This document shows positions 1 to 49,664 of a stretch of DNA of 64,000 bases, piece after piece. A program made the translations under genes and the position numbers. Position 1 is the first letter of the stretch. Each line of letters starts with the position of its first letter. Origin of the DNA: Streptomyces canus (GTDB lineage: Bacteria > Actinomycetota > Actinomycetes > Streptomycetales > Streptomycetaceae); contig NZ_CP107989.1 in assembly GCF_041435015.1 (NCBI RefSeq), positions 1,736,001-1,800,000 on the forward strand, in the 5' to 3' direction. The notes beneath the pieces were generated by a model. The model saw only the letters and a list, made by a program, of their open reading frames with translations, ran no database searches and was not told where the DNA came from.

Positions 1-454
1 GCAGGGGCAGTGACAGCGCCGCCACGAGGTCGACCTCCTCGCCCGGGGGGATCCGGTCGAGCAGCTGGTCGGTGGCCCGCTCGATACGGGGCCTCAGCGT
101 CTGCACGCGCCGCATCGTGAACGCCTTGCCCATGATGCGGCGCAGCCTGGTGTGGTCCGGCGGGTCGCTGAAGAGCATGCTCTTGAAGTTCGCGAGCTGC
201 ACCGGGTCGGCGCTGACCTTGTTGCGCTCCACGATGCGCGGCAGCTCCGCGGCGTCCTTGGACAACCGGGGATCGGCCAGCAGCGAGCGCGCCGCCTCGT
301 AGCGGGTCACCACCCAGGCGTGCAGCTCGGTGGTCAGGGTCTTCACCACGACCCGGTGAGCCGGCGCCTTGGTCCGCATGTCCTGGTAGATCACGTATGG
401 GTCCTGGGCGAACTCCGGGCTCAGCAGATCCGCCACACTCGATATTCCGCTCAC
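1..454 (-). CDS. Cytochrome P450, N-terminal part (runs off the left edge)
   Basis: This is the first 151 codons of a bacterial cytochrome P450, which would hydroxylate, epoxidise or otherwise oxidise the finished polyketide in the cytosol using ferredoxin-supplied electrons. The visible part starts [20 protein letters not shown] and contains the typical N-terminal DPY motif, a B-region [20 protein letters not shown] and the helix-C signature [19 protein letters not shown] (about residues 106-125). The I-helix, ExxR and haem-Cys loop lie beyond position 1. The GTG start overlaps the TGA stop of the thioesterase-bearing PKS gene by four bases (GTGA, 451-454), so it is probably translationally coupled and last, or near last, in the PKS operon. 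The style resembles macrolide P450s of the CYP107 kind, but the subfamily and the oxidation site cannot be told from this fragment. Confidence 0.93.
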
Positions 455-3400
455 GCGCGTCCCTCCTGCTTCATCCTGTGGGCTCCTTGGTCGGCCAGCC
501 AGCGCAGGACCGACCGGGCGGTCGACGCGGCGGACTCCTGGATCATGGACAGATGGTCGGCGGCCGCTACCTCGGCGCAGGTGTGCGGGACAGGCCAGGC
601 CGGCTTCAGGTATGCGGCCATGGGCTCGCCCGCCCGGGGACCGGCGGCCACATGGCGTTCCGCGGTGAGCTGAAGCGTCGGCGCCTGCGCCGCGGCTGGA
701 CGCCAGCCCGCGAAGAGCCTCAAGTAACGGGCCATCGCCGTGAGTTGGTCGTCGGTGATCCGTCCGAAGCGCTCCGGGTCGATCGCGTGGTCACCGCCCA
801 GCAGGGTCTGCTGGATGTCGGCGAGCCCCTGACTGCCCGGCAGATGGGAGTCCAGGAGCACCACCGCGCGGGCGGGCTCCCCGATCTCTGCCAGGTGCTC
901 GGCGACGGCGTGGGCGACCCAGCCGCCGGAGGAGTAGCCAACGAGGACCGTGTCCCGGTCGTCCGCACACCGCCTTACCGCCTCGGCCCGGTCGGTGACC
1001 AGCTCGCCCAGGGACGCGGGCAGCGGTTCCCCCTCCTCGAAGCCGGGATGCGGCAGCACGCTGAGCGGGTAGGCATCGCGGAAGGCGGAGGCGAAGCGGG
1101 CGAACTGGAAGGCGTTCGACGGGGCCACCACGGAAGGGAAGCAGATCAGTGCCGGGACGACCGGGTCGTCGGTGCGGCTGAAGACCATCGGGGCGGGGAG
1201 GGCGAGGGCGCGGTCCGGAGGCTGCTGCGCGTCCCTGAGCCTGGCCGCCGACGCCAGGAGATCGAGGCCGGCCTCCATCCGCCTTTCGGCACAGGCGGCG
1301 CGGAAGAGGTCGCGCAGACCGCGGTCCGTGTCGCCGCTGACGCTGTACGACTTCAACGCCCCCGGCTCGTCGAGCAGTTGGAGGAGGTACTTGGCGAGGA
1401 GCCTCGGTGCCGGATGGCTGAAGGGGAGATCCGCGGTCAGGGGCAGACCGGTGGCCGCCTTGAGGCGCTCGCACAGCTCCACCACGGTCAGGGAGTCGAA
1501 TCCCAGCTCGGCGAAGAGAGTGTCGGGGTGAACCTCGTCCCACGGCGTGTAGTCGAGGATGGCCGCGACCTCGGCGCACACCCCCCGCAGCAACACGTCC
1601 TCCCGCTCTTCGCGCGGGATACCCAGGAGGCTCTGACGCAGAGGGAAGGAGGCTTTCGACGGCGGTTCGTCGGCGGTGGGTGCGGAGGCCGTGCCGACCG
1701 CGAGGGAGGGTTGGACTCCGTCGATCCAGTAACGCCTGCGTTGGAAGGCGTAGGTGGGCAGGTCGACCGTGCGGGCGCCTGAATTCTCGAACAGCGCCTG
1801 CCAGTCGACGGAGGCCCCGGTGGTCCACAGGGCGGCGAGGGCCTTGACGGCGGTCTGGGGTTCGTCGCGGTTGCGGCGCAGCATCGGCGTGCAGCCCAGG
1901 ACCAAGGGGGAGAGCGCCGCGTCCGGGCCCACCTCCACGAAACGGACGGCGCCTGCCCCACGGGCGGCTTCGACGTCGTCGTGGAAGCGAACAGTGTCGC
2001 GCACATGCCGTACCCAGTACTCCGGATCGGTCACCTCCTTGACAAGCGTGAGCTGCGGCTCGTGGAAGGTGACCTGGGCCAGGACCTGACGGAAGTCCTC
2101 CAGCATCGGCTCCATCAACGGCGAGTGAAAGGCATGGCTGACCGACAGCCGCTTCACCTTCCGGCCCTCGGCCTCGAAACGAGCGGCGATCGCCAGTACG
2201 GCCGACTCCTCGCCCGAGATCACCACCGCCTCGGGACCGTTCACCGCAGCGATGGATACGTCGTCCGTCAGCAGCTCGGCCACCTCGGCCTCAGTCGCTT
2301 GGAGGGCCACCATCGCGCCGCCCAAGGGCAGTCGGCTCATCAGCCGACCGCGCGCGGTGACCACTCGTACCGCATCCTCGAGCGACCAGACCCCCGCCAC
2401 ATGGGCGGCCGCCAGCTCACCGATCGAGTGCCCCACCAGCACCTCAGGGGTCACACCCCACGACTCCAACAGCCGGAACAGCGCCACCTCACACGCGAAA
2501 ATCGCCGGCTGCGCCCACGCCGTGTCCCCCAGCACCTCCACCGGACCGTCGAACATCACCTCCCGCAACGACCCGCCAAAAGCCCCGCACACCTCATCCA
2601 GAGCCCTCGCGAACACCGGATACGCCGCATACAACTCCCGGCCCATCCCCACCCGCTGAGAACCCTGACCGGAGAACACAAACCCGGTCCCACCAGTACC
2701 CGCGAATCCGCGAGCCAGTTGACGGCCGTCGTCCATCACCACGGCCCGGTGCTCGAACACGGACCGAGTCGAGACCAGCGACCATCCGACATCCACGGGA
2801 TCCAGCCCCGGAGTCCAGTCCCCCAGCCGGCTCAACTGCCCCCGTAGCGCCTCGGAGGACCGCCCCGACACCACCCACGGCACCACAGGCACCGAAACAC
2901 GTGCAGGAGTCTCCCCCGTCTCCTGAGCCGGCGCCTCCTCCACAATCACATGCGCGTTCGTCCCACTCGCCCCGAAGGCGGACACCCCGGCCCGGCGAAG
3001 CCGCCCCTCCTCAGACGCCCACTCCCGCGCCTCCCGCAACAACTCCACCGCACCCGACGCCCAGTCCACCTGCGCCGTCGGCTCATCCACATGCAGCGTG
3101 CGCGGCAGCACCCCCTCACGCAGCGCCATCACCATCTTGATCACACCGGCCACACCCGCAGCCGCCTGCGCATGCCCGATGTTCGACTTCAACGAACCCA
3201 GCCACAGGGGGCGTTCGGCGTCCCGCCCCTGCCCGTACGTCGCCAACAGCGCCTGCGCCTCGATCGGATCCCCCAGCCTGGTCCCCGTACCGTGAGCCTC
3301 CACCACATCCACATCCGCCGCCGACAACCCGGCACTCTCCAAAGCCGCCCGGATCACCCGCTGCTGCGACGGACCGTTCGGCGCCGTCAACCCGTTGCTC

Positions 3401-48400: not shown

Positions 48401-49664
48401 GGTCGGGGTTCGGCCAGGGGGAAAGCCTCTGCTGGACGCGCAGGTTGAGGCGGTCGAGGGGGATGTCCGGGTTCGGTGTCTCGTAGTTGAGGCTGGCCGG
48501 GATCATCCGGTGCTTGAGGCAGAGGACGGTCTTGAGGAGTCCGGTGATGCCTGCGGCGCCGCTCAGGTGGCCGAGGTTGGTCTTCACGGATCCGACGGCC
48601 AACGCGTCGCCCGAAGGGCGGGCCGCTCCGAGGACCGCGCCGAGCGCGGCTGCCTCCACGGGGTCCCCGGCCCTGGTGCCGGTGCCGTGCAGCTCCACGT
48701 ACTGCACCGCGTCGAGCGGTACCGCTGCCTGTCGGTAGGCCTGCCGCAGGACGGCGCTCTGGGCCTGCGGATCGGGGGTGGTCAGGCTGCGTCCGCCGCC
48801 GTCGTTGTTGGTGGCGCTGCCCCGGATGACGCAGTGGATGCGGTCACCGTCCGCGACGGCCTGCCTGAGGTTCTTGAGCACGACCGCTGCGCCGCCCTCG
48901 CCCGGGACGTAACCGTTGGCGCGGGCATCGAAGGCGTAGCAGCGGCCGTCGGGGGAGATTCCCCCCCAGCGTGCGGCGAGGAGGGTGCTCTCGCCGAGCA
49001 GGTGCAGGTTGACGCCGCCCGCGAGGGCGAGCCCGGACTCGCCCCGGCGCAGGCTCTCGCAGGCGAGATGGACGGCGACCAGGGAGGAGGACTGGGCGGA
49101 GTCCAGGGTCAGACTGGGACCGCGGAGCTTGAGGAAGTAGGAGAGCCGGTTGGCGACGAGGGCGCGCTGGGCGCCGGGCATGGCGTGGTGGGCGCCTGCT
49201 TCGTAAGTGGCGTCCTGGTGGAGGAGTCTGGCGTAGTCGTCCGCGTTGACTCCGACGAAGACCCCTACGTCGAGGCCCCGCAGTGTGGAGGGGCGGATGC
49301 GGGCGTCCTCCATGGCCTCCCACCCGAGTTCCAGCATGAGGCGTTGCTGGGGGTCCGTGAATTCCGCTTCGCGGGGCGTGATGCCGAAGAAGTCGGCGTC
49401 GAAGTCGGCGATCCGGTCGAGGAAGGCTCCACGTTCGAGTCCCGCCGTGTTCCCGAAGCCGGGGAGGTCCGCCGAGTCGTCGGCCCACCAGCGGTCCCGG
49501 GGCACGTCGGTGACGGCGTGCCGACCGTCGCTCAGCATGTCCCACAGTTGATCGGGTCCGTCGGCCTTCGGCAGGCGGCAGGAGATCCCGATGATCGCGA
49601 CGGCGTCGTCGGGGACGTCTGCCGTCCGGAGTTTCTCGGCTGTGACGTGACCTGCTTCGCGCAT
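36498..49664 (-). CDS. Type I PKS I: loading module plus modules 1 and 2
   Basis: The protein has 4388 residues from ATG 49664 (GGGGAG 5 nt upstream). Loading module: KSQ with Gln191 in place of the active Cys ([12 protein letters not shown]), AT with GHSIGE (Ser657) and HAFH, ACP Ser986. KSQ domains are known to decarboxylate AT-loaded malonyl, giving an acetyl starter. Module 1: KS Cys1218, malonyl AT (Ser1643), DH (His1929), KR (LLDDG, Tyr2529; nucleotide loop TGAFGRIG), ACP Ser2699, expected to give the C18=C19 double bond. Module 2: KS Cys2930, methylmalonyl AT (GHSQGE Ser3396, YASH), KR with Trp4077 and Tyr4085 (A1-type fingerprint), ACP Ser4253, expected to give the C17 hydroxyl and C16 methyl. 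There is no N-terminal docking helix, as expected for the first subunit. The C-terminal tail ([14 protein letters not shown]) differs from the other subunits, as does the N-terminus of PKS II, so this interface should be specific. Confidence 0.97.

Follow-up and report, generated by a model that had tools for sequence, protein, structure and literature searches.

Organization of the locus

The window, a stretch of 64,000 nucleotides of the Streptomyces canus chromosome, carries five polyketide synthase (PKS) open reading frames that span exactly positions 451 to 49664, all on the minus strand. The genes are colinear from 49664 down to 451 and encode a KSQ loading module and nine extension modules (M1–M9), i.e., ten units. 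PKS A (36498–49664) features the loading module KSQ-AT(malonyl)-ACP; M1 with a malonyl AT, a DH, and a KR carrying the LDD motif; and M2 with a methylmalonyl AT and a KR lacking LDD as the sole reductive domain. PKS B (26543–36466) contains M3 (malonyl, with a KR lacking the catalytic Tyr) and M4 (methylmalonyl, DH-KR). Its start at 36673 overlaps PKS A, and the docking domain begins at a GTG at about 36466, a position counted by hand. PKS C (15491–26515) contains M5 (malonyl) and M6 (methylmalonyl), both with DH-KR. PKS D (4332–15425) contains the fully reducing M7 (malonyl, DH-ER-KR) and M8 (methylmalonyl, KR only). PKS E (451–4335) consists of M9 (malonyl), arranged as KS-AT-ACP-TE with no KR. 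Pfam was run for PKS A and B and found their domains with E-values far past the chance level, complemented by motifs and, for PKS B, a KR alignment; the domains of PKS C, D, and E were read from motifs alone.

The PKS operon is headed by a zinc alcohol dehydrogenase (ADH; 49710–51086, minus strand), whose best NCBIfam model is NDMA-dependent alcohol dehydrogenase, scoring below its cut-off. On the plus strand follow a discrete thioesterase, type II as judged by its stand-alone form (51079–51861); a DUF5988 protein (51894–52112); a carboxyltransferase subunit of an acyl-CoA carboxylase, putatively for extender supply (52120–53667); and an IdmH-like SnoaL-type cyclase of 158 aa (53705–54181). 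A membrane O-acyltransferase of the Acyl_transf_3 type (54401–55648, minus strand) may acylate a hydroxyl. Beyond it lie a LuxR-type regulator (55973–58513, plus strand); the 471-aa P450-2 (58605–60020, plus strand), with albaflavenone monooxygenase and pentalenene oxygenase as best NCBIfam models, both below cut-off; and two LuxR-type regulators on the minus strand (60047–62503 and 62583–64000, the latter running on to 64328 outside the window).

At the synthase end, the gene order is PKS E, P450-1, and a SnoaL_2 protein. P450-1 (−763 to 454, minus strand, positions 1–454 inside the window) has 405 aa and is CYP107-like with TamI as its best solved relative. The SnoaL_2 protein, an AkaM-type cyclase of 120 aa, lies after P450-1 and thereby beyond the window edge (−1184 to −822). 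The two genes straddle or lie past the left edge and are, hence, invisible from the window alone.

Module reading and predicted chain

The loading module carries the KS motif DSAQSSS (KSQ) and the malonyl AT motif HAFH. The extension KS domains all (9/9) carry DTACSSS. The AT motif is HAFH in M1, M3, M5, M7, and M9 and YASH in M2, M4, M6, and M8, so that the strict malonyl/methylmalonyl alternation of the original prediction is found in nine of nine modules, and its architecture of KSQ loading plus nine modules is borne out by the KS, AT, DH, ER, and KR motifs of the five ORFs. AT, KS, KR, and DH motifs report on substrate and activity by general rules. All five DH domains (M1, M4, M5, M6, and M7) carry the His and Asp motifs, and the motif scan places an ER in M7 only. 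The form HxxxDxxxxP, not HxxxGxxxxP, occurs in M1, M5, M6, and M7; it is counted as ordinary since the D form accounts for 9 of 28 DH-like motifs in the 120 proteins that a search with the TE listed. The catalytic Ser/Tyr/Asn residues are intact in seven of eight KRs. The exception is M3: KR3 is predicted to be inactive because GAQALTD replaces the Y-(A/C)-A-x-N segment of the other KRs.

The module reading supports the predicted linear C24 keto-triene chain, and the acid C24H36O6 agrees with the formula re-derived by hand. The C-terminal end of PKS E is ACP-TE with the TE motif GYSSGG, and the TE matches the structures of the erythronolide synthase TE. Lacking a KR, M9 leaves a 3-ketone by the module reading, followed by the TE at the end of PKS E; the beta-keto-delta-lactone end proposed before is supported.

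The P450–cyclase cassette

The 120-aa cyclase matches the solved structure of AkaM (9iq3) significantly, with an E-value of 2e-12 and an identity to AkaM itself of just 31% over 119 columns, which counts against the akaeolide-class reading given below. It is nearer to the solved structure 9iq7 (E-value 2e-48, 63%). The cassette was revealed by the G455 locus, found in a search of 35 genomes; a companion search of 22 genomes found nothing. A P450-1-type gene adjoins the cyclase in all six loci examined (the present locus, G271, G455, G759, G181, and G554), and beyond these a P450–SnoaL_2 fusion protein exists (P0279). The last module carries a TE motif and lacks a KR motif in five of the six, the G455 module being split over two frames and the scan of the G181 module covering only the stretch that starts ahead of the AT and ends with the TE. 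Against this stands G759, where the pair is present next to a last module without a TE motif and with a KR motif. The cyclase found no match among plasmids, and P450-1 none in the TE-relative genomes G158 and G408.

The cluster of the Streptomyces draft genome G271 is closely related (cyclase 91%, P450-1 89%, ADH 83%, PKS E 81%, DUF5988 75%, type II thioesterase 72%, regulators 46–65%); the relatives of the two terminal LuxR-type regulators beside it share 46% and 52%, respectively. The assembly fuses the KS of module 3 to module 7, with the junction within KS-AT repeats, and G271 yielded no close copy of KR3, of the DH-KR of module 6, or of P450-2, for which no match above 41% was found in the five relatives. 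The cluster seems by sequence to lack about four central modules, leaving five extension modules—either a true length variation or a misassembly of the draft genome. Four further PKS contigs of G271 were considered as the missing modules and assigned to other PKSs, their best-scoring matches to the PKSs of the window being 35–62% identical compared with 77–83% for true counterparts.

Proposed ring closure

The best explanation, held with some but not strong preference, is a ten-unit PKS of the akaeolide/mangromicin class whose product would be a lactone-fused 19-membered carbocycle formed by joining C2 and C20. The end-of-line enzyme set matches that proposed for akaeolide ring closure, and the product is, therefore, probably a larger relative of akaeolide with a 24-carbon chain. 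The ring size of 19 is inferred. The TE would release the chain through O5 as a 4-hydroxy-5,6-dihydro-2-pyrone, i.e., the beta-keto-delta-lactone. P450-1 would hydroxylate the allylic starter methyl C20, a regiochemistry not readable from sequence, and the ADH would probably oxidize the C20 alcohol to the aldehyde. The 120-aa cyclase would then couple the acidic C2 with C20 in an aldol-type reaction, at a bond position that we infer, yielding the 19-membered carbocycle with its fused lactone. The acyltransferase, P450-2, and the second SnoaL protein may serve further decoration or folding. Expected species are the lactone C24H34O5, the enal/aldol C24H32O6, and the dehydrated C24H30O5, followed by reduced and acetylated forms. 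The calculated neutral masses are 402.2406 for C24H34O5, 416.2199 for C24H32O6, and 398.2093 for C24H30O5, with 400.2250 for a further candidate, C24H32O5, and an increment of 42.0106 per acetate.

The ADH is kept in three of the five relatives (G271 83%, G455 65%, and G181 62%); the best matches in G759 and G554 reach just 43 and 45% on other contigs, which counts against its role. By equal logic, four modules fewer would give an 11-membered ring in G271. The shortness of that cluster puts the draft assembly or else the predicted ring size under strain and in this respect counts against the best explanation. An extension of the same reading—one AkaM-type release cassette serving a ring-size series, with a 19-membered triene here and an 11-membered ring in G271 after recombination in the KS-AT repeats removed four modules—is speculative and, as stated, unlikely.

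Alternative outcomes

The TE matches the macrolactonizing TEs of the erythronolide, tylactone, and pikromycin synthases, and the modules as read leave O17 free. Hence, the TE might form the 18-membered macrolactone via the C17 hydroxyl named in the original prediction, with the P450s and cyclases merely decorating it or forming small oxygen rings, the more so as SnoaL-fold proteins also perform other chemistry, such as that of limonene epoxide hydrolases. This outcome is unlikely: ring size is not told by TE sequence similarity, a delta-hydroxy-beta-keto end prefers six-ring lactonization, and the order of the cassette and the AkaM match indicate akaeolide chemistry. The macrolactone has become less likely than first proposed because the cassette points to C–C ring closure.

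The 158-aa SnoaL protein is homologous to IdmH of indanomycin, its best solved sequence match (E-value 4e-31, 42% over 131 residues), and shares its fold, although the PKS context of IdmH differs. IdmH has been argued to catalyze a Diels–Alder reaction (PMC6830212). Either the 158-aa protein or a spontaneous reaction could join the C10–C13 diene with the C18–C19 alkene after oxidation at O17, so that a decalin would form ahead of the macrocycle or in its place, and in our own drawing the four-carbon tether fits. We regard this as quite unlikely, as the SnoaL family is common (248 of 295 genus genomes at E ≤ 1e-3) and engaged in many reactions. In addition, the protein is not part of the core since no close copy was found in the orthologous G271 genome (best E-value 4.3e-12). 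A contig scan with it found two distant loci. Its structural neighbors include limonene epoxide hydrolases; the 9iq entries are absent among the best 50 matches listed by the structure search, which is uninformative on AkaM kinship. As a candidate for the akaeolide-type cyclase, the 158-aa protein was dropped once the 120-aa protein appeared beside P450-1.

Failure of colinearity by skipping or iteration, so that the chain is not C24, is very unlikely. It would accord with G271, where five extension modules seemingly suffice and the junction falls in KS-AT repeats, and with the exact repeats of up to 704 bp between modules inside the window, a sign of recent exchange. Against it, the motifs are kept in nine extension KS domains, ten ATs, and the loading KSQ, and the protein ends resemble docking stretches compatible with the gene order, as judged by eye and with the last two junctions not discriminated.

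Aromatization of the enolized triene by a P450 to an embedded benzene ring with a pyrone or dihydropyrone tail—drawn by us as a C14–C9 closure to a 1,2,4-substituted arene, the triene adjoining C14H2–C15=O, and modeled on the NFAT-133/TM-123, lorneic acid, and gombapyrone clusters, which share a type I PKS polyene and a P450 and employ P450 aromatization, deletion of the P450 NftE1 being described as giving non-aromatic analogues (PMC10265476)—is highly improbable, given that P450-1 is CYP107/TamI-like with the cyclase as its conserved partner, whereas P450-2 comes closest to terpene oxygenases and has no match above 41% in the relatives.

Significance

To our knowledge, few large all-carbon rings from modular PKSs are known, and the ring-closing enzyme step is hard to study from a single example. 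With one conserved P450–cyclase cassette serving synthases that differ in length, two of them closely related, the determinant of ring size could be tested directly. The carbocycle reading also supplies concrete product masses for searching extracts.

Comparison with the akaeolide and mangromicin systems

The akaeolide cluster of Streptomyces sp. NPS554 features, in its published gene table (Table 2), Orf8-523 (1322 aa), Orf8-524 (P450, 408 aa), and Orf8-525 (cyclase, 115 aa), the same order of terminal PKS, P450, and small cyclase as found here (PMC4306953). Orf8-525 is putatively AkaM, judging from size and name. This order and the match to the AkaM structure back the kinship with akaeolide and mangromicin that the original prediction had hinted at. 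Both clusters share an acetate start, malonate as last unit, and the beta-keto-delta-lactone end, and in both a type II thioesterase, a subunit of an acyl-CoA carboxylase, and another P450 are encoded close by (PMC4306953). Two features of the class recur: the KR-less terminal module (3-ketone) with its TE in PKS E, and the P450 with the AkaM-type SnoaL_2 cyclase right after the terminal PKS. Akaeolide is described with eight units, a propylmalonyl unit predicted for module 6, and a 15-membered ring (PMC4306953), whereas the present cluster has ten alternating units with malonyl and methylmalonyl motifs only, a triene, the ADH, a second SnoaL protein, and an acyltransferase. With ten units and no alkylmalonyl motif, it is, hence, not an akaeolide cluster and belongs to the wider class only. 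The akaeolide gene table lists no ADH of such kind, which counts against the ADH role (PMC4306953). No named product with this module order, nor AkaM, was found in the open-licence literature as covered by titles and abstract starts among the matches listed. Of the earlier suggestion of something new, chain and ring size possibly stand, but the kind of compound is already known. For akaeolide, 13C labeling is reported to show that the C16–C17 bond is made after chain assembly, and a candidate mangromicin cluster of Lechevalieria aerocolonigenes is reported as orthologous to the akaeolide cluster (PMC4306953).

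Module organization of the PKS

The window (G000:C1:1736001–1800000) stems from a genome of 10.68 Mb in five contigs and carries five PKS ORFs, PKS A to E, on the minus strand within 451–49664. PKS A and B were annotated by Pfam, and the modules were read from motifs together with a KR alignment; substrates and KR types are predicted from active-site motifs by general rules. The loading module consists of KSQ (DSAQSSS), a malonyl AT, and an ACP. Malonyl is the extender in M1 (DH-KR, with LDD), M3 (KR without the catalytic Tyr, as judged by motifs and the KR alignment), M5 (DH-KR), M7 (DH-ER-KR), and M9 (no KR; ACP-TE), and methylmalonyl in M2 (KR without LDD), M4 and M6 (both DH-KR), and M8 (KR without LDD). 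This is the reading of the original prediction, a KSQ loading module and nine extension modules. The predicted acid would be CH3-CH=CH-CH(OH)-CH(CH3)-CO-CH2-CH=C(CH3)-CH=CH-CH=C(CH3)-CH2-CH2-CH(OH)-CH(CH3)-CO-CH2-COOH, and a recount of its atoms reproduces the formula proposed earlier, C24H36O6. The G-to-D change in four of the DH motifs is common, occurring in 9 of 28 DH-like motifs among the proteins listed as TE relatives. A known product with the same module order was not found in the open-licence papers searched.

Repeats and an apparently shorter related cluster

A scan of window bases 1–50000 with exact words of 200 yielded ten exact between-module repeats of 251–704 bp. The longest spans 704 bp and is shared by the KS-AT regions of M9 (2221–2924) and M3 (34379–35082); the other nine span 251–355 bp. 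These exact repeats link modules and hence argue that exchange between them is recent. In G271, a Streptomyces draft genome, one contig (L054 and L070, G271:C379) joins the start of PKS B, the module 3 KS, to module 7 inside the KS-AT region; compared with window 8481–41738, the junction falls in common KS-AT sequence. The orthologous G271 cluster seems to be missing modules 4 to 6 and all of module 3 downstream of its KS. Probes for KR3 and the module 6 DH-KR, the two parts searched for, found no close copy in this genome (best 47% and 51%). Four other G271 PKS contigs were rejected as counterparts, being only 35–62% identical. The four modules are either truly absent or lost from the 430-contig draft.

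Genes flanking the PKS

To the left, outside the window, PKS E is followed, with an overlap at its end, by the CYP107-like P450-1 and, 58 bases further on, by a 120-aa SnoaL_2 protein. Further left lie a polyprenyl synthetase, a squalene/hopene-cyclase-like protein, a terpene synthase, and a P450 (L009:12078–18151, window −7922 to −1849), probably a separate terpene cluster immediately adjoining that of the PKS. To the right are an ADH, a stand-alone TE (51079–51861), a DUF5988 protein (51894–52112), a carboxyltransferase, a 158-aa SnoaL protein (53705–54181), an acyltransferase, three LuxR regulators, and P450-2 (471 aa, 58605–60020), with a TetR regulator and an MFS transporter beyond.

In G271, the ADH, stand-alone TE, and DUF5988 genes adjoin PKS A as in the window, the DUF5988 protein (75%) again next to the TE, and relatives of LuxR2, LuxR3, and TetR (46–65%) lie past the cyclase. 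The G271 genome contains no high-identity copy of the 158-aa SnoaL protein (best E 4.3e-12) and no close copy of P450-2 (best 32%); both therefore look accessory. The 158-aa protein is confidently modeled with a SnoaL-type fold (mean pLDDT 91.4). Its nearest solved relative is IdmH by sequence and Foldseek, and CV_0247, AknH, and SnoaL by VIA-align Z. Relatives occur on a short metagenome contig (84%), in Streptomyces sp. LN549 (81%), and on a 15,106-base contig (58%); relatives of the PKS E TE (52% and 46%) lie on contigs equal in size to those of the latter two.

Conservation of the cyclase–P450 pair

At E ≤ 1e-12, the 120-aa cyclase is present in 3 of 394 class genomes (own, G455, G554) and 4 of 392 genus genomes (own, G271, G759, G181), the own genome being counted in both sets. 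A P450 adjoins it at all six loci, with identities to P450-1 of 89% (G271), 66% (G455), 56% (G181), and 55% (G759 and G554). Among the matches listed, named relatives of P450-1 are from Streptomyces caeni (91%) and S. mimosae (89%), and those of the TE from Streptomyces sp. NPDC048106 (80%) and Saccharothrix syringae (50%). Two natural fusions were observed: P0279 (P450 and SnoaL_2 cyclase) and P0128 (terminal PKS module and P450). P0279 and the related terminal PKS P0137 both lie on contigs of 11030 bases.

The last module has a TE motif and no KR motif at five of the six loci (own, G271, G455, G181, G554), the G455 module being split across two frames and the G181 scan being confined to the stretch that begins upstream of the AT and ends with the TE. 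In G759, a KR motif is present and a TE motif was not seen in the last module; its PKS locus (L055/L056) carries an AkaM-type cyclase 94% identical to the solved chain 9iq5. ADH relatives are found in G271 (83%), G455 (65%, on a different contig from the cyclase), and G181 (62%, ~1.3 kb past the cyclase); the best matches in G759 and G554 reach only 43% and 45%.

Comparison with akaeolide

The 120-aa protein matches the PDB entries 9iq7 (2.4e-48; 63% identity), 9iq5 (43%), 9iqn, 9iqd, and 9iq3, which bears the name AkaM (2e-12; 31%). By name and size, AkaM would be akaeolide Orf8-525. In the akaeolide report (PMC4306953), the authors concluded from labeling that the C16–C17 bond is formed after chain assembly. 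They proposed that the P450 oxidizes the starter methyl, that the cyclase then catalyzes its aldol reaction with the methylene of the lactone, and that reduction comes later. For the present product, we infer a 19-membered ring, the P450 regiochemistry, and the role of the ADH. The gene table in the akaeolide report lists consecutively PKS Orf8-523 (1322 aa), P450 524 (408 aa), and cyclase 525 (115 aa), and the same order is found here with PKS E (1294 aa), P450-1 (405 aa), and the SnoaL_2 protein (120 aa). This gene order and the cyclase match support placing the cluster in the wider akaeolide class, with the defining C–C bond as a prediction.
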